DNA of 64,000 nt, taken from NCBI RefSeq assembly GCF_003732705.1, contig NZ_MOBR01000040.1, forward strand, positions 1 to 64,000. Direction: 5' to 3'. The notes below the pieces were generated by a model that was not told the origin of the DNA, ran no database searches, and saw only the letters and a program-made list of their open reading frames with translations. This DNA is from Pseudomonas frederiksbergensis (GTDB lineage: Bacteria > Pseudomonadota > Gammaproteobacteria > Pseudomonadales > Pseudomonadaceae). Shown here in pieces: positions 17,500 to 34,090 of this stretch. Made by a program: the position numbers and the translations under genes. Numbering within the stretch: the first letter of the stretch is position 1; the number at the start of each line of letters is the position of its first letter.

Positions 17500-18279
17500 T
17501 TAATAAGCTTTGTTCTCAACCAAGCAATTGCCTCCATCCACCACTAGCAACTCACCTGTGATGTAACTCGCTTCAGGAGAAGCCAAGAATACAACGGCAG
17601 CGGCCACTTCATCTGGCCGACCCGCTCTTCCGAGAGGTGTAGAGCGTGCTGCTTTGACTTCATCAGGAGTGCTCGACCCTGTAGCTATCCAACCAGGGGC
17701 AACTGAATTCACAGTGATACCTAGATGAGCAACCTCAAGAGCAACACTCATGTTCATCCCTACCATTCCGGCCTTTGCTGCACTGTAAGCAGCCTCTCCT
17801 GGATTACTGGCTCGTGTGCCTGTGGTTGAGCTGATGTTCACTATGCGGCCATATCCTCTAGCCCGCATCCCAGGCAACACCCCTTGAGTTAACAGGAACG
17901 CAGTTGTCAGATTTCTAGCGATGGAAAGATTCCAGGTTTCAAGGCTCGTACTCGTGAACTCGGCGAACGGTTCTGGACTTCCTTGCATCGCCATACCGGC
18001 ATTATTTACAAGAATATCGATGTGGCCCCAGACGGCCTCAGCCCAAGCGACGAACTCACTAACCTGAGTTTCCTGAGTTAAGTCTACCGGTCGACCCTCC
18101 GCTTCGAAGCCGGCGGCGCGTAACTCCGCAACCCGCTCATTGATGCGTGCGCTGCTTGCCGTGACGATCAGTTTGGCCCCTTGAGCCCCAAGACGATGGG
18201 CAATAGCCATACCAATTCCAAGCTCACTGCCCGCTCCACTCACAAGCGCCACCTGATCCGCCCAGCTTGAATTCATCAT
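17500..18279 (-). CDS. SDR family oxidoreductase
   Basis: A 259-residue classical SDR. The cofactor motif is a variant, SGAGSELGIG (residues 14-23). NNAG is present, and the catalytic triad appears as Ser in NISSTTG, Tyr and Lys in YSAAKAG. It ends with a typical SDGG-like VVDGGN. FabG-like NAD(P)H-dependent reduction is likely, but the substrate is unknown. It lies between two homologous mvaT 3' ends, so it probably entered with or through recombination at mvaT sequences. Confidence 0.82.
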   Translation of the reverse strand: MMNSSWADQVALVSGAGSELGIGMAIAHRLGAQGAKLIVTASSARINERVAELRAAGFEAEGRPVDLTQETQVSEFVAWAEAVWGHIDILVNNAGMAMQGSPEPFAEFTSTSLETWNLSIARNLTTAFLLTQGVLPGMRARGYGRIVNISSTTGTRASNPGEAAYSAAKAGMVGMNMSVALEVAHLGITVNSVAPGWIATGSSTPDEVKAARSTPLGRAGRPDEVAAAVVFLASPEASYITGELLVVDGGNCLVENKAY

Positions 18280-28015: not shown

Positions 28016-28921
28016 TCACTCATCCGGTCGTTGGACTTTCAGTGCCTCGCTGACCAACCATTGGCGAAAGTTGGCGATGTGCGGTTGCGATTCAATGCCC
28101 TTGGGGCAGACGAAGTAGTAAGCCAATGGCGATGGAAGCGGCACATCAAACAGCCGCACCAAACGGCCATCGCTGATTTCGTTCTCGACATGCCCGCTGC
28201 GCACCAATGCAACGCCCTGGCCAAGCAAGGCCGCCTCGACCGTCATGTTGGTATCGGCAAATCTGACGCTCTCCTTAAGCGGCAAATAGGCCAGCCCGAC
28301 AGCTTGAAACCACACCTCCCACTTTGGCACCAACTCGGCGCCATCCCGCGTCAGCAGCGGGAAGTGCAACAAGTCTGCGGGGCTCTGCGGTGCTCCAACG
28401 CGTCGCAACAGTTCGGGACTGGCCACAGGAAATACCTGCTCCCCAAACAGGAACTCCGAATGCAGACCTGGGTAATTGCCCTTGCCGAGCCTGATCGCAA
28501 CATCAGCCTGGCCGTGAGAGAAGTGGATGATTTTATCCGTGGTGTCCAGCGAGACCAACAGCGCGGGGTGCTGACGAGAGAGACGCGGCAAGCGTGGCAG
28601 CAGCCATTTGAGCGCGAAGGAATAGGTGGTGCTGACGCTGAGTCGAACCCTGCCGTTTTGCTCGCGGAGATCACTCAAAGTCGCCTCCAAGCTGATGAAA
28701 AATTCACGCACGATGGGCGCCAGCGCAGCTCCCGCTGCCGTGAGGCGTAACGCCTTGCCACGTTCAAATAACTGCAGCCCCCAAAGCACCTCGAGATGCT
28801 TGAGCTGGTGACTGACCGCGCTTTGAGTAACATGCAGCTCCTGTGCGGCTGAAGTGAAGGTCAAGTGCCGGGTGGCAACTTCAAATGCGCGCAAGGTCGC
28901 GGTGGGCGGCAAGTCTCTCAT
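28016..28921 (-). CDS. LysR-family regulator, GcvA-like
   Basis: About 301 residues. The N-terminal helix-turn-helix (LRAFEVATRHLTFTSAAQELHVTQSAVSHQ in part) and the LFERGKALRLTAAG wing are those of GcvA/AmpR-like LysR regulators. The effector domain follows. The ATG at 28921 gives the usual MRDLPPTATLRAFE start. ATG 28957 would add 12 residues. It could control the EamA gene next to it, from which it is separated by only 75 bases in tandem. Confidence 0.82.
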   Translation of the reverse strand: MRDLPPTATLRAFEVATRHLTFTSAAQELHVTQSAVSHQLKHLEVLWGLQLFERGKALRLTAAGAALAPIVREFFISLEATLSDLREQNGRVRLSVSTTYSFALKWLLPRLPRLSRQHPALLVSLDTTDKIIHFSHGQADVAIRLGKGNYPGLHSEFLFGEQVFPVASPELLRRVGAPQSPADLLHFPLLTRDGAELVPKWEVWFQAVGLAYLPLKESVRFADTNMTVEAALLGQGVALVRSGHVENEISDGRLVRLFDVPLPSPLAYYFVCPKGIESQPHIANFRQWLVSEALKVQRPDE

Positions 28922-28957
28922 AAGGGCAGTATCCAGCGAGTTATCAGAAAAGCGCAT

Positions 28958-29384
28958 GCATGAACGCTAGCTCATGATAGAGCTAAACTCACTCGAAACG
29001 TCACTTGGGGACCATCACATCAGCGTAAGCGGCATCACCTGTTCTGCTCTGAGCGCAGGGGTTTTAACCAGCTACACATTTCAACGAATGTAGGGAAATC
29101 GAATTGGCTTGAGCGTCGTGCCATATGGCGGGCCATGAGGTGGGCCATGTTAATTTCAAATGTTTCGCAGTTGAATTCAATACTGCGGATGGGGGCACTG
29201 AAAAGAACTAAAACTGGTGCGCTAACGCGACTTGGTGAAGTAATCCTTCACTCTGTTTGGTGAACGTGGAGTTGTGTACAGCATCGACTGAACACTGTGC
29301 ATTTTGATCGTGCAGGAAGTTCTCTTTTGGTGATGACAAATGTATGGGAGATTGCCCAAACTGTCCCATGAGAGAATAATTGTA
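28958..29384. other. Gene-free stretch before the DUF4863 gene
   Basis: No convincing coding frame. AT-rich runs and several ttga sequences suggest a promoter region, but no clear -35/-10 pair can be named. Confidence 0.35.
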
Positions 29385-29915
29385 ATGAAACAGCGTGATG
29401 AACTGATTAGGCGGTGTGTTGAGTTTCTATCTGAAATCAAAGACAAGACTGCTGGCGCAAACATAGAACCCTGGCTTAATGACCATTACGGGCCTGACAC
29501 TGAAACTTACCAAAGAATCGCTGAACTGGTGAGAGAAGGTGTCGCGCAGGGATGGGTGGCTAACACTGAAATCAGTGGGTCGCATTATCGTCGCAGCCGT
29601 TTATGTGAACCGTCTGCGGAAACCTTTTACTTCAGCATCACCGCCGTCTATATGGACAGCAAAGGTCACGAACTGGATAACCCGCAGCACACATTTCGAG
29701 GGGATTATCACTGTCATCCCTACGGAGAACTCAACATGGTGATCCCGCTCGACGAGGACGCAGTCTTGGCCGGACCTCTTGGTTGGCAAGGCGCCGGCTG
29801 GACCGCCCCTGCACCTGGAAGCCATCACTATCCTGAAGTGAAGAACGGAGCATTGATTGCTTTCTTTTTTCTACCTGCGGGCCGAATTTCCTATGACGTT
29901 CAGGCAAATGGCTGA
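29385..29915 (+). CDS. DUF4863 protein, 4-hydroxylaminobenzoate lyase (PnbB)-like
   Basis: A 176-residue protein of the DUF4863 family. I recall this family to include PnbB, the 4-hydroxylaminobenzoate lyase that makes protocatechuate and ammonia. It has the conserved middle FRGDYHCHPYGELNMVIP and the end GSHHYPEVKNGALIAFFFLP, cupin-like. A gagagaa site precedes ATG 29385. The last codons overlap the chorismate-lyase gene (23 bases, or 8 if that starts at 29908), so translation is probably coupled. A PnbA-like nitroreductase lies 1.3 kb away, which supports the assignment. Enzyme activity is unproven. Confidence 0.65.
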   Translation: MKQRDELIRRCVEFLSEIKDKTAGANIEPWLNDHYGPDTETYQRIAELVREGVAQGWVANTEISGSHYRRSRLCEPSAETFYFSITAVYMDSKGHELDNPQHTFRGDYHCHPYGELNMVIPLDEDAVLAGPLGWQGAGWTAPAPGSHHYPEVKNGALIAFFFLPAGRISYDVQANG

Positions 29916-30480
29916 GTTGCAGGTGCGTGATCGTTTCTTGCAACCTGGGGCGCGCTGGCATATGGGTAGCGATTGTCATTCATTGATGAATCCAACCACC
30001 AGAAATTGGCTATTGGACCGAGGATCGCTGACCCGCCGCTTGAAACTTTTGTCCGGTAACGAATTTCAAGTCATTCCGTTGCGGAACGAGGCCGGGCCGC
30101 CCCAGCCAGCGGAGTGCAAGCTACTGGAACTGGAAACAGGCGCCATCGGCTGGACACGCGAGGTGTATCTGGCTGGGCTGGGGCGTCCTTGGGTTTTTGC
30201 ACGGTCTATCATTACTTCTCTTGATCGTGAGGCTGGTGATTCGCCTTTATTCGGATTAGGGGAAGTTCCCCTTGAAACTGTATTATTTGGCAACGCCCCT
30301 TATCAGAGAAGCGAGATTGAGGTGTGCCGGTATATGGAAAACGGGCAGGCAGGTCAACAGGACGCTGAACCGCTTTGGGCCAGACGACCAATATTCCGTC
30401 GGCAAAAAAATCGCATTCTTGTCCAGGAAATATTCCTGCCAGAACTTTGGGATGAACTGCGGAAGACAGAGTTTGTATAG
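29893..30480 (+). CDS. Chorismate lyase (UbiC-like) paralogue
   Basis: About 195 residues aligning along the whole length of UbiC, which splits chorismate into 4-hydroxybenzoate and pyruvate. It has WLLDRGSLTRRL (39-50), the active-site Arg89 in WTREVYL, PWVFARSII, the LGEVPLETVLF element and the catalytic Glu179 in QEIFLPELW. The ubiquinone ubiC of pseudomonads usually pairs with ubiA, so this looks like a second, specialised copy. It overlaps the DUF4863 gene, and a strong terminator follows. A shorter start at 29908 (MAELQVRD) is possible. Confidence 0.75.
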   Translation: MTFRQMAELQVRDRFLQPGARWHMGSDCHSLMNPTTRNWLLDRGSLTRRLKLLSGNEFQVIPLRNEAGPPQPAECKLLELETGAIGWTREVYLAGLGRPWVFARSIITSLDREAGDSPLFGLGEVPLETVLFGNAPYQRSEIEVCRYMENGQAGQQDAEPLWARRPIFRRQKNRILVQEIFLPELWDELRKTEFV

Positions 30481-30483
30481 TAG

Positions 30484-30528
30484 GAGGCGCGTATGGATTA
30501 TTACGCGCCTCTATACACCTTTTTTTAA
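30484..30528 (+). terminator. Terminator after the chorismate-lyase gene
   Basis: gaggcgcgta and tacgcgcctc form a ten-pair stem with an eight-base loop, followed eight bases later by seven T's. It ends the DUF4863-ubiC-like transcript before the convergent HD gene. Confidence 0.75.
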
Positions 30529-30551
30529 AACAGCGGGGCGAAGCAGTTTGC

Positions 30552-31199
30552 TTATCGATGTTCCCAATGTGAACAGAGGATGATGCTGCACAGATCTGTG
30601 CGCTTGAATTTAGGGTCCTTATAGGCAAGGAAGTCATCGTTGAAAGTGCCGAAGGTACTTTGGGGACGATGGTTCATTCCAAGGTAAAATTCGTCGATCA
30701 TCTTGTGAGCGAATCGGGCTTCCCGCGGATAGGCCGAAATCACCTCATCTCGTTGGTCGTCGGTAAATTCTTCAAAGCCACGTCCCGCGACGTCCATTCC
30801 TGCACCCGCCTGTAGAAGGGCGATCTCAGAATGCATGTGTTCCGGGATGCCCGGAGTGGTATGGAGCGCGATTGCGTTCCAGACCTTTTCCACATCCGTG
30901 GCGCAAATTCCATGACCGCGCAGAAAGTCACGTGCTGCGTTGGCGCCGTCTACCTCAAAGCGGAGCTGGCTGTTGTTGTACTTCGACGTCAGGCCGACAT
31001 CATGGAACATCGCCGCGGTATAGAGCAGTTCAGGGTCAAAAATCAGGTCCTTTCGTTTACCTGTCATCGCCCCCCAAAAGTAGACGCGTGTGGAGTGTGA
31101 AAACAGTAAATCACTTTCGGTGTCGCGAATGAGTTCAGTCACTTCCCGGGTCAGTTGGCTGTCGGGAATGCTTACTTTGAAACGTTCGGTCAGTGGCAT
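30552..31199 (-). CDS. HD-domain metal hydrolase, cyanamide-hydratase-like
   Basis: About 215 residues. Metal ligands of the HD fold are visible: His35 (FSHSTRVY), His66-Asp67 (MFHDVGL) and a later His in AIALHTTPGIPEH. The pattern resembles the small HD proteins annotated as cyanamide hydratase or phosphohydrolase-like. The substrate is unknown. The ATG at 31199 has a ggagag site. The stop codon of the nitroreductase gene lies 54 bases before it, so the two are likely co-transcribed, with this gene last. Confidence 0.7.
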   Translation of the reverse strand: MPLTERFKVSIPDSQLTREVTELIRDTESDLLFSHSTRVYFWGAMTGKRKDLIFDPELLYTAAMFHDVGLTSKYNNSQLRFEVDGANAARDFLRGHGICATDVEKVWNAIALHTTPGIPEHMHSEIALLQAGAGMDVAGRGFEEFTDDQRDEVISAYPREARFAHKMIDEFYLGMNHRPQSTFGTFNDDFLAYKDPKFKRTDLCSIILCSHWEHR

Positions 31200-31253
31200 G
31201 AGTGCGATCTCTCCAATACGCCAATACAGGTGTTGGTCGGGCTTCACAAACGT

Positions 31254-31958
31254 TTAGAAGCCGTGAAGCGAAGCAAACGCTTCGATTGAAGCCTTTGGCA
31301 TTTGCGGACGCCGCCGGGCCCATTGCGGATCACCAAACCCCATCGCCATGCCGCAGACCACCAACTCTTCAGAAGCCAGCGGCAAGCAGCTACGAAAAAC
31401 GGTGTGGTAACGAGCAAGGAACTCTTGCGTGCAGGTGTCCAGTCCTCGCGATTTGGCGGCGAGCATTATGTTCTGAATGAACATGCCCAGATCCAGCCAA
31501 CTGCCTTTTTCAAGCCGCCGATCAATGGTGAAAACCAACCCGACCGGTGCATCGAAGAAACGGCAGTTGCGTTCGGTCTGAGTCGCCCGTGAAGAAAGGT
31601 CATCATGAGCGATGCCCAATGAACCGTAGAAGATCGAACCGAACTCCCGGCGACGGGAAGCGTATGGCTCCGGCAATGGGTCCGGAAAGTAGCTGTATTC
31701 AGAAGAGGGTTGAGCCGGCTGTTTGTGCGCGGCGATGATGGCGCCTGTCAACGTGGCTTTGGCAGCCCCTGTGGTGACATAGACCTTCCACGGTTGCACA
31801 TTCGCTCCTGTGCCGGCATGACGCGCGGCATGGAGGATGGCTGTGATCACTTCAAGCTCGACTTCACGATTCAGGTAAAAGCGATTGGCAAATCGACTTA
31901 CCATGATCTGCTCGACTTCAGTCAGCTCAAGTATCGACTCGGTTTGGGCATCAGGCAT
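31254..31958 (-). CDS. Nitroreductase, PnbA-like
   Basis: A 234-residue FMN-dependent nitroreductase family protein. The flavin-site segments are SRFANRFYLNREVE, RHAGTGANVQPWKVYVTTG and, near the C-terminus, VCGMAMGFGD. The NANVQPW pattern and length suit the NfsB/4-nitrobenzoate reductase (PnbA) group, which reduces a nitro group to hydroxylamine. A DUF4863 (PnbB-like) gene lies nearby on the other strand. The LysR gene at 32092 lies upstream, in the same orientation. Substrate specificity is inferred. Confidence 0.7.
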   Translation of the reverse strand: MPDAQTESILELTEVEQIMVSRFANRFYLNREVELEVITAILHAARHAGTGANVQPWKVYVTTGAAKATLTGAIIAAHKQPAQPSSEYSYFPDPLPEPYASRRREFGSIFYGSLGIAHDDLSSRATQTERNCRFFDAPVGLVFTIDRRLEKGSWLDLGMFIQNIMLAAKSRGLDTCTQEFLARYHTVFRSCLPLASEELVVCGMAMGFGDPQWARRRPQMPKASIEAFASLHGF

Positions 31959-32091
31959 GATTCACGTCCAGTCATTTAACGTATTAAGGTCCTGACTACC
32001 CTACGTTGCAGATTTGCCGTCACTGAAGTGCAATTTTCATCACATGAAAATGCACACCGTGCATTCAGTTTACAATGACTGTCGGCGTAGG

Positions 32092-33054
32092 TTACGGTTC
32101 TACAATCTCCGCAGACGGTGCCGCATTGGATAGCATGCTGCGCAGCCAACTATGCCCTGGGTCGTGAGTATGTCGTTCATGCCAGACCATTTGCACGGCA
32201 CGTGGTGGGGCTTGCCAAGGCAGTTGCGAAGCGCACGCTACGCCTGATTGGTGGAACAGATTCGCCAGAGTGCTTGGAACGATCGCGGCCATTTCGGTGC
32301 CGGACAGCAGGCTTGGGACGGCAAGGAAATGCGGTTGCACCACCTTGATGTCGGGGTATTTTCCGATCGAAGCAAACGCGGCTGTCAGAGCGTCCCGGTC
32401 AAACATTTCAGTGCGCCGCGTCAAACCGCGTTCGGAGAATTCGCCATCTTCCGAGCTGCCTGTGGAGATGACCAAAAGCGGGAGGTTTGAAAGAGCGTCT
32501 AATCCTATCTTGCTGTCGGCGAGTGGGTGATTTTTGGCAATCACCATCATGTCGTGCTCCTTGAACAGCACTTGTTCGCGCAGCCGGTGAGGAATGCCAG
32601 AGAACGACCCAAGGGCAATGTCCACACGACCTACGTCAATCTGCGCGGTCAGGTCGATTCGGCTGGCGGGCAATACTGTGAAATTCGCGTAAGGCGCGAT
32701 GGTTGAAATCGTCCGTAAAAAGTTCGGCAGTATCACCGCTGTCATATGATCGGTCGCGGCAATACAGAACTGGCGATCGGTATGACTTGCATCAAACTCT
32801 CTGGGACCGACCGCACGCTCGATCGCTACCAAGGCATCTCGCACCAGCGGTGCCATTTCGAGTGCCCGAACGGTTGGCTCCATCCCGTTCGTCGTGCGCA
32901 CAAACAACTCATCGTTGAGCAGCGCCCGGAGTCGTGAAAGTGCATGACTGACCGCAGACGGGCTGAGACTGACGACTTCACTCGCCCGCAGGACATTTTT
33001 TTCCCGAATGATTGCGTCGAACACCCGTAGCAAATTCAAGTCCAGATTTCGCAT
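32092..33054 (-). CDS. LysR-family regulator (possible PnbR)
   Basis: About 320 residues. The N-terminal helix-turn-helix is MRNLDLNLLRVFDAI... with LRASEVVSLSPSAVSHALSRL, of the NodD/NahR-type LysR class. The NahR branch commonly senses aromatic acids. It lies 133 bases upstream of the nitroreductase in the same direction, so in a nitrobenzoate-type locus it is a candidate for the regulator PnbR (inference). The C-terminal domain is complete. Confidence 0.78.
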   Translation of the reverse strand: MRNLDLNLLRVFDAIIREKNVLRASEVVSLSPSAVSHALSRLRALLNDELFVRTTNGMEPTVRALEMAPLVRDALVAIERAVGPREFDASHTDRQFCIAATDHMTAVILPNFLRTISTIAPYANFTVLPASRIDLTAQIDVGRVDIALGSFSGIPHRLREQVLFKEHDMMVIAKNHPLADSKIGLDALSNLPLLVISTGSSEDGEFSERGLTRRTEMFDRDALTAAFASIGKYPDIKVVQPHFLAVPSLLSGTEMAAIVPSTLANLFHQSGVACASQLPWQAPPRAVQMVWHERHTHDPGHSWLRSMLSNAAPSAEIVEP

Positions 33055-33223
33055 TTCCAATTCACCACGTTTTCCGGCCTACCTACCTTTCATCCTGCCG
33101 TACCTGGGCATTTCGTTGGTACCAGCCCGATAAAAATTCTAGTCTGTTTCTCCGTCGCGCAAGCGGCACGGACGGGGTTTCGTCGAGGATGTGGGACGTA
33201 ATCCCCGCCATTGGCGTCAAGGT

Positions 33224-33644
33224 TTATGGCTTTGATTCGGTGGGTTGCACCAGTGTCTCCTTATCATTGGAAAGCAACCAGGCGACGAGGGAGGCGGGCT
33301 GGGAGGTGCTTGGATTGCGCGTTACCCCGATGCAACTGACCTGGCTCTTCATACCATGCTTGTCCGGCTTTGTAGAGCTGCGGTGGCTGGCCGTCGAGCG
33401 CCGACTCAATTTCACCGCTCAGCACAACGACAAATACATGCCCTGGATGTCGATGGGGAGTGGATGTGGCACCAGGCGCGAAATCGACACGAACGGCAGT
33501 GGCCTTCGCAAAAGCCTGTGGAGGCAACGCAGCTTGAGCGATCGGAGTAACGATTTCATCTCCCGCGCCACCGCCATGAGCCAGGGCAACTGTACTGAGC
33601 ATGCCTACGAACGTTGCACCGATTACTTTGACGAGCAAGTTCAT
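33224..33644 (-). pseudogene. Cupin gene with a frameshift
   Basis: An exported cupin protein (signal peptide LLVKVIGATFVGMLSTVALA, then HRHPGHVFVVVLSGEIESAL). Near 33329 the frame is shifted by an extra G in a four-G run. The normal ending TSQPASLVAWLLSNDKETLV is in another frame and stops at 33224. In frame, it ends abnormally at LPRRLVAFQ. The error may be real or a sequencing indel in the run. It follows the broken CMD-family gene by five bases. Confidence 0.7.
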
Positions 33645-33649
33645 GATGT

Positions 33650-34090
33650 TTACTCCGGCTGCATTGCGAAGCCAACGCCAAAGCGATTCCAGGCGTTGAT
33701 CGTGGCAATCACAAAGGTCAATTCCGCCAGCTCTTGGTCGTTGAAAGCGGCGGCGACTTCTTCGTAGATATCGTCTGGCGCATGAGTCGTTGCGACCAGC
33801 GTCAGCGTCTCGGTCCATAACAGGGCGGCGCGTTCTTGCTGATTGAAAAAAGGTGTTTCCTTTCAGGTACTCAAAGCTGCCAGGCGACGTAATGTTTCAC
33901 CTTGGTTAGCGGCATCCGTGGTATGCATATCAACGCAGTAGGCGCAGCCGTTGATTTGGGATGCCCGGATCCGTACCAACTCTCGTAATGAGAGTGGAAG
34001 CACCGATTCCGAAATGGCTTTTTCTAGCCCCATCATGGCCTTCATCGCCTGAGGAGCAGCGGCGTAATAGTTAAGGCGTTTTGAAGTCAT
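33650..34090 (-). pseudogene. Carboxymuconolactone decarboxylase/AhpD-family gene with an in-frame stop
   Basis: Reading through one stop gives about 146 residues of a CMD-domain protein. The redox-active CAYC with following His is in NGCAYCVDMHTTDA. A TGA after RRLAALST replaces the expected Trp (LST-stop-KETPFFNQQERAALLWTE). The rest of the frame is intact to the TAA at 33650. With the frameshifted cupin downstream it forms a once co-transcribed pair, divergent from the LysR gene at 34203. Such proteins handle peroxide or related stress. Confidence 0.75.

Follow-up and report, generated by a model that had tools for sequence, protein, structure and literature searches.

Gene content of the locus

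A cluster of five genes in Pseudomonas frederiksbergensis (assembly GCF_003732705.1, contig NZ_MOBR01000040.1) pairs a PnbB-family gene with a paralogue of chorismate lyase, termed UbiC2, and is examined here as a candidate catabolic regulon of the 4-nitrobenzoate (pnb) type in which UbiC2 would protect ubiquinone synthesis. The window is the whole stretch analysed, 64,000 nucleotides (positions 1 to 64,000 of the contig), and belongs to a genome of 7,135,144 bases in 46 contigs. The features of the cluster, in window coordinates, are as follows.

29289..29323, plus strand: operator of the PnbR type, 15 of 15 core positions, ending 61 bp 5' of the PnbB ATG
29385..29915, plus strand: PnbB-family protein, 176 amino acids; PF16155, 213 bits (cut-off 26.9), model positions 2-153 of 153
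29893..30480, plus strand: UbiC2, chorismate-lyase paralogue; PF04345 (Chor_lyase), 114 bits (cut-off 23.6), model positions 5-167 of 168
30552..31247, minus strand: HD-domain hydrolase; PF01966 (HD), 34.4 bits (cut-off 22)
31254..31958, minus strand: PnbA-like nitroreductase; PF00881 (Nitroreductase), 91 bits (cut-off 23.5)
32029..32063, minus strand: degenerate operator 5' of the nitroreductase, 11 of 15 core positions, containing the perfect dyad AATGCACGGTGTGCATT
32092..33060, minus strand: LysR-family regulator of the PnbR-like subfamily, with LysR helix-turn-helix and substrate domains

An initial annotation, made from the sequence, had named these five genes as PnbB-like, UbiC paralogue, HD hydrolase, nitroreductase and LysR; all five lie where it placed them, and every Pfam match exceeds its cut-off. 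On the opposite strand the order is LysR, nitroreductase and HD hydrolase, with 6 bp between the last two. The nitroreductase, which is 57% identical to one adjoining a DUF4863 gene on a Methylobacterium nodulans plasmid, and the LysR gene both accompany PnbB, and by its gene content the locus is of the pnb type (PnbB/nitroreductase/LysR). The PF16155 family, whose current Pfam name is '4-hydroxylaminobenzoate lyase', is described in a passage of PMC6449761 as homologous to both PnbB and 2-hydroxylaminobenzoate mutase.

UbiC2 as a second chorismate-lyase gene coupled to PnbB

The PnbB stop codon occupies 29913-29915, and three candidate starts of UbiC2 surround it: ATG 29893 (23-nucleotide overlap with PnbB), ATG 29908 (8-nucleotide overlap) and TTG 29917 (1-nucleotide gap). 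In the Pseudomonas locus L007 an in-frame stop stands just 5' of the corresponding UbiC2 ATG, and for this reason TTG 29917 is favoured. Judged from the reading frames, the coupling of PnbB and UbiC2 is firm, and the exact overlap hinges on the start chosen; the tight coupling noted in the initial annotation is thus upheld, while the overlap that it described depends on the start, relatives favouring the 1-nucleotide gap. For PnbB itself, an alternative in-frame ATG at 29340 is less conserved.

The description of UbiC2 as a 'second' chorismate lyase proved accurate, as the genome holds one other Chor_lyase gene (C45:275099, 170 bits), a canonical UbiC directly followed by UbiA. UbiC2 is 38% identical to this UbiC (41% over the part aligned by BLAST), and the UbiC2 of the window is 44-60% identical to those of the loci L007-L010 and L014. 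The active Arg and Glu residues reported for the paralogue are present: in an alignment to E. coli chorismate lyase structures, R89, R104 and E179 of UbiC2 stand opposite the catalytic R76, R91 and E155 of the E. coli enzyme, and the three are invariant across 16 aligned UbiC proteins. UbiC2 looks catalytically competent. In a phylogenetic tree the UbiC2 proteins form a single clade (99/99) apart from canonical UbiC, and a further paralogue, UbiC3, forms another (99/99). Among the 11 of 15 pairs for which it could be computed, dN/dS is 0.12-0.33 for UbiC2 and likewise, in 11 of 15 pairs, 0.04-0.17 for PnbB, both being rough values with many dS above 1; by these ratios UbiC2 is under purifying selection.

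All 11 PnbB-bearing genomes checked, 10 from Pseudomonas and one from a different genus in the same family, have a canonical UbiC, which UbiA follows in 11 of 11. Seven of seven genomes that carry ubiC3 or ubiA2, a paralogue of ubiA described below, have a canonical UbiC as well. Because canonical UbiC is retained, the UbiC and UbiA paralogues are regarded as additions.

A change of substrate in UbiC2, for example to amino-deoxychorismate or to a side product of nitrobenzoate reduction, would fit its faster evolution relative to PnbB, the identity of only 44-60% to its counterparts in L007-L010 and L014, and a score below the chorismate lyase equivalog cut-off. However, the positions invariant in canonical UbiC, the catalytic ones included, are kept in UbiC2, and the UbiA paralogues under the same operator indicate ubiquinone rather than folate; such a change is considered unlikely.

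Distribution of the pair across genomes

Pseudomonas is taken here as the genus in the broad sense, and a close PnbB is one with at least 61% identity. A search of named genomes with PnbB yielded 26 loci, eight from Pseudomonas and 18 from other genera. UbiC2 follows PnbB in six of the eight Pseudomonas loci (L006-L010 and L014, the PnbB of L014 being interrupted by an assembly gap) and is absent in L011 and L012, and a whole-genome search added two Pseudomonas PnbB loci without UbiC2 (G339, G552). The co-occurrence check suggested in the initial annotation thus found the pair conserved, and the refuting outcome named there, a lack of conservation, did not arise: with the window counted, UbiC2 stands behind PnbB in seven of the 11 Pseudomonas loci that have a close PnbB. 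The coupled chorismate lyase, an unexpected addition to the pnb route, recurs in six other Pseudomonas loci, which is beyond what chance would give.

The same arrangement was not seen at the loci inspected outside the genus. No UbiC gene lies within the fetched flanks of the 18 PnbB loci of other genera (Burkholderia, Paraburkholderia, Bradyrhizobium, Roseomonas and actinobacteria); 14 of these 18 genomes have no PF04345 gene, and four have one elsewhere. Eight of 300 Burkholderiales genomes contain PF16155, with 11 matches in all, and the surrounding 1.5 kb or so of each match holds no UbiC. Among plasmids, UbiC2 as query returned 10 records at 43.6% identity or less, the best being a ubiC adjoining ubiA on a P. 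aeruginosa plasmid; PnbB as query returned 26 records, and no UbiC lies near PnbB in the four inspected.

Within Pseudomonas, 398 genomes were surveyed, and PF16155 is present in eight. A UbiC2 search at E <= 1e-36, a limit too strict to pick up UbiC2 of the most divergent kind (L009 type), matched eight genomes, comprising four clear UbiC2 genes, three canonical ubiC-ubiA pairs and one new locus, G336, which carries UbiC3. All four clear UbiC2 genes stand behind PnbB, within the eight PF16155 genomes (hypergeometric 6.8e-8, or 3.4e-6 with the window left out, both uncorrected for kinship). Two distant PF16155 genes (31-34% identity; G329, G469), outside the 11 loci, have no UbiC nearby.

The PnbR-like regulator and its other neighbours

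In L007 the genes run nitroreductase, flavin-reductase-like, LysR (reverse), PnbB, UbiC2, porin-like and a major facilitator superfamily (MFS) gene of the aromatic-acid type, which scores 335.6 bits on TIGR00895, below the cut-off of 418.55; the flavin-reductase-like and porin-like names were given by eye. The order is similar in L009 and L010, except that the MFS gene has the opposite orientation in L009 and falls outside the contig in L010.

The PnbR-like LysR protein of L007 was used as query against the 398 Pseudomonas genomes (E <= 1e-90). The resulting counts are a lower bound, as five candidates were scored per genome and the window's own LysR (7.9e-72) misses the limit. PnbR-like LysR genes occur at no fewer than 12 places in at least 11 of the 398 genomes, and at the 12 places found the neighbour is pnbB in four (two with UbiC2 behind it), UbiC3 in two (G336, G580), a paralogue of UbiA, termed UbiA2, in five (G574, G352, G545, G401, G598) and an oxidoreductase-like gene (by eye) in one. 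None of the seven genomes with UbiC3 or UbiA2 gave a PF16155 match.

On TIGR01474, UbiA2 of the five genomes reaches 290-310 bits, above the equivalog cut-off of 275.45, and the third UbiA of G401 (UbiA3; 283.9 bits) also exceeds it. Canonical UbiA is also present in five of five (332-338 bits), and UbiA2 and UbiA3 are 31-40% identical to it. In L110, L111, L112 and L114 a DoxX-like gene (by eye) follows UbiA2, at a site near trpBA. In G336 and G580, UbiC3 is divergent from the PnbR-like LysR, which on its other side converges with an MFS gene of the efflux type (L097:6312-7841, L115:6735-8189), the product of the L097 gene scoring 223.8 bits on TIGR00711, just below the cut-off of 230.2.

The regulators were placed in a tree whose outgroup comprised six next-nearest LysR paralogues, the seventh, the partial L151, being left out. 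The UbiC3-linked LysR proteins are sister to the Pseudomonas PnbR-like proteins (100/100). The UbiA2-linked LysR proteins are joined by the second LysR of G401 in a single clade (100/99) that lies within the PnbR-like group, with mostly Burkholderiales proteins (94/92, narrowly below the starred level). The LysR of the window falls into a starred clade (99/99) with the regulators from three further PnbB loci. In three genomes the PnbR-like subfamily is sharply set off, with members at E <= 8e-72 and the next LysR at 2e-38 or weaker.

Two further PnbR-like genes were observed. The second one of G401 (L155:2332-3345) has no ubi or pnb gene adjacent. The second PnbR-like cluster of G329 (L116, C39) consists of a nitroreductase with operator, a flavin-reductase-like gene, the PnbR-like LysR and a GMC-oxidoreductase-like gene (names by eye), and, among the matches listed, a three-half-site match stands before a FadL-like porin gene (by eye); this cluster may act on nitrobenzyl or chloramphenicol-like compounds.

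These distributions bear on the proposal, made in the initial annotation, that PnbB and UbiC jointly make 4-hydroxybenzoate or protocatechuate in a new pathway. They do not support it, as, within the fetched flanks, PnbB occurs without UbiC at four of the 11 Pseudomonas loci and at 18 of 18 named loci of other genera, and as two genomes without PF16155 have a UbiC paralogue, and five a UbiA paralogue, beside a PnbR-like regulator. A joint PnbB and UbiC pathway was rejected as the leading interpretation since each is found without the other beside related regulators. From these gene neighbourhoods, the common factor is taken to be the regulator with its operator and not a joint reaction of PnbB and UbiC.

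Close to that proposal is the possibility that UbiC2, as an active chorismate lyase, supplies the metabolism of 4-hydroxybenzoate or protocatechuate, or produces a co-inducer, and plays no part in protection. Its catalytic residues are intact, and the expected product of PnbB, protocatechuate, is also the usual product of the 4-hydroxybenzoate pathway. Yet nothing is gained by converting chorismate to a growth substrate, and the UbiA paralogues, as well as the UbiC paralogue without PF16155, beside the same regulator subfamily are left unexplained, which makes this possibility improbable.

A shared operator

T-N11-A dyads are typical binding sites of LysR proteins, and the window operator, TGAA-CACTG-TGCA-TTTTGATCG-TGCA-GGAAG-TTC, has two of them 9 bp apart in its 35 bp. 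The intergenic regions have TGCA half-sites in common: among all combinations of a 4-letter half-site with a pair of spacings, TGCA at spacing 5 or 9 is the best, being present in six of six representative promoters (the best in 40 shuffled sets reached four). The aligned promoters give the consensus TGMA-N5-TGCA-N9-TGYR-N5-TKC.

For the operator scans 15 core positions were scored, with TGCA as the third half-site. The only match of at least 13 of 15 in the 64-kb window is the site at 29289-29323, just 5' of PnbB-UbiC2, with a score of 15; the site 5' of the window nitroreductase reaches only 11 of 15. In 38 chosen loci (653,902 bp), 33 distinct sites of at least 14 of 15 were found in 27 loci, compared with a mean of 0.44 sites and a maximum of seven for 41 control spacing pairs in the same loci. 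Sixteen of the 33 stand before pnbB, two before ubiC3, five before ubiA2 and one before the third UbiA of G401, a gene (L155, 18140-19156) with its operator at 18041-18075 and the nearest PnbR-like gene 15 kb away. Four others stand before a nitroreductase at the place of pnbA (L007, L009, L010, L116), two between a divergent HD gene and nitroreductase (L009), two before a PnbR-like LysR (L024, L030), and one has no obvious target (L155:3801). The sites at pnbA-like genes, at the HD/nitroreductase pair and at the third UbiA were not used in motif discovery. By itself, the pattern of three half-sites is not specific to these loci: among the matches listed, each of 12 genomes has 12-23 (backward control, 0-4). 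Taken together, the comparisons lend good support to shared regulation of pnbB and of the ubiC and ubiA paralogues.

The arrangement could also be an accident of lineage, in which a ubiC duplicate fell behind pnbB in one Pseudomonas ancestor and was then carried along. UbiC2 does form one clade in one genus and was not found beside PnbB elsewhere. Purifying selection on UbiC2, the position of four of four clear UbiC2 genes behind PnbB in 398 genomes, and the fact that a second UbiC clade and UbiA paralogues separately came under the same regulator subfamily and operator all argue against such an origin, which is rated the least likely of the alternatives considered here.

Ubiquinone synthesis as the process proposed to be protected

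The evidence leans towards a pnb catabolic regulon, for 4-nitrobenzoate or the like, with UbiC2 as a built-in protection gene. UbiC makes 4-hydroxybenzoate, and UbiA uses it. The PnbR-like LysR would sense 4-nitrobenzoate or a similar 4-substituted benzoate, bind the operator of four half-sites and switch on the nitroreductase, in the role of PnbA, together with PnbB, which would convert the compound to protocatechuate and ammonia. UbiC2 would be co-induced, translated in step with PnbB, and would make extra 4-hydroxybenzoate from chorismate; this would outcompete the nitro compound at UbiA, so that ubiquinone synthesis could run on for as long as any toxin is left. In other Pseudomonas, this regulator subfamily and its operator would control either a UbiC paralogue by itself or a divergent UbiA serving as a spare.

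In passages of PMC5479927, 4-nitrobenzoate appears as a competitive inhibitor of Coq2 and is listed among the inhibitors of Coq2/UbiA, and a passage of PMC12834005 reports that 1 mM 4-hydroxybenzoate partly rescues the growth of yeast carrying the malaria enzyme. It is because of this published inhibition of Coq2/UbiA by 4-nitrobenzoate, with partial relief by 4-hydroxybenzoate, that UbiC2 is read as a protection gene rather than as a step of a new catabolic route. E. coli UbiC is reported in PMC6561319 to be inhibited by vanillic acid, and an extra UbiC could be of use on that account too. We infer the protective role of UbiC2 from gene content, and the locus suggests a way to keep respiring while degrading a compound that blocks ubiquinone synthesis.

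The occurrence of one regulator family beside pnbB or beside paralogues of UbiC or UbiA has a simple explanation if its inducers mimic 4-hydroxybenzoate: UbiC would supply competing substrate, and a divergent UbiA a spare target. The chances seem about even that the PnbR-like LysR and the 35-bp operator define a wider regulon against natural and man-made mimics of this kind, a dedicated resistance system for bacterial ubiquinone synthesis with modular outputs: destroying the mimic (PnbA/PnbB, possibly the HD protein), flooding with the true substrate (UbiC paralogues) or swapping the target (UbiA paralogues).

Several points weigh against a protective regulon. As to the catabolic genes, a passage of PMC6449761 places PF16155 genes also in benzoate (box) operons of Betaproteobacteria, and the family need not mean nitrobenzoate; UbiC2 is optional, being lacking at four of 11 Pseudomonas and 18 of 18 other-genus PnbB loci. 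As to the enzymes, UbiC2 evolves faster than PnbB by the ratios given above, which could mean a shifted function, and on NF008656, the chorismate lyase equivalog of NCBIfam, it reaches 63.7 bits (cut-off 191), a weak test in which canonical Pseudomonas UbiC was not scored; UbiC3 of L097 has 80.2 bits on the same model. UbiA2, at 31-40% identity to canonical UbiA, might prenylate something else, and four of the five UbiA2 places are one syntenic site near trpBA (genes named by eye), G401 being the second site. Should the strain have a 4-hydroxybenzoate hydroxylase, that enzyme would draw off what UbiC2 makes.

As to the operator, it was derived from some of the loci that it describes, and both motif and interpretation were built after the data had been seen. 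No site of at least 14 of 15 is present in 11 of the 38 loci scanned. These are L056, which holds the canonical ubiCA of the genome from which the window comes, five PnbB loci of actinobacteria (L018, L019, L021-L023), and L013, L025, L031, L033 and L052. In L052, a Pseudomonas locus, PnbB is present and UbiC2 is not. As to the toxin, the bacterial action of 4-nitrobenzoate in the relevant part of PMC12834005 rests on a review, two animal-cell studies and one cyanobacterial study, the literature consulted yielded no primary data for inhibition of UbiA from a proteobacterium, and a passage of PMC7685456 states that 4-nitrobenzoate did not lower CoQ in fission yeast. In the open-licence literature, outside which most subscription journals fall, no paper was found that ties UbiC or UbiA to nitrobenzoate degradation or PnbR.

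Neighbouring genes

The HD protein is distantly similar to cyanamide hydratase, with 60.9 bits on TIGR03401, below the subfamily cut-off of 109.85. A protein of this sort recurs within about 8 kb of PnbB in five of the 26 named loci and also in L052, the loci concerned being the window, L006, L009, L012, L019, L031 and L052. In L009 the HD homologue and a nitroreductase are divergent and share a promoter with an operator. A small cupin-like gene (by eye) at 33264-33818 adjoins the LysR of the window, and P. arsenicoxydans has a similar gene in the corresponding position (L006:11836-12255). One further regulator lies on the other side of the cluster.

28016..28957, minus strand: GcvA-type LysR, divergent from PnbB; NF008352, 305 bits (cut-off 288)

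This protein occupied a distant row in a superseded first LysR tree and is probably outside the pnb system.

Significance and comparison with known systems

If the protective interpretation is true, nitrobenzoate catabolism can bring with it protection of the respiratory quinone, which would help to explain the substrate tolerance of some degraders, and there would be a resistance mechanism for inhibitors of UbiA, a target under study in parasites. The operator, the regulator subfamily and the spare enzymes UbiC2, UbiC3 and UbiA2 offer a testable set for laboratory Pseudomonas.

The pnb pathway for 4-nitrobenzoate is known from P. putida TW3 and Ralstonia pickettii YH105. The window resembles it in having a PnbB-family protein, a nitroreductase and a LysR regulator, to which L007 adds flavin-reductase-like, porin-like and aromatic-acid-transporter-like genes; unlike that pathway, the window couples a chorismate-lyase paralogue to PnbB and has an HD hydrolase after the nitroreductase. 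The genes pnbA, pnbB and pnbR are also listed, in a part of PMC9302171, for Paraburkholderia terrae KU-15.

UbiC2 shares PF04345 and the catalytic residues with the UbiC of ubiquinone synthesis, but it stands in a catabolic operon, away from ubiA, and is only 38% identical to the UbiC of its own genome. Similarly, the UbiA2 of other genomes passes TIGR01474 like the 4-hydroxybenzoate octaprenyltransferase UbiA, whereas it is an extra copy, divergent from a PnbR-like LysR and 31-40% identical to canonical UbiA.

Resistance to antimetabolites can come from more substrate or from a spare target, as with p-aminobenzoate and the sulfonamides. The proposed system is alike in that an inhibitor would be outcompeted or its target replaced; it differs in that the target would be ubiquinone synthesis and in that the gene lies within the very regulon that would degrade the presumed inhibitor.

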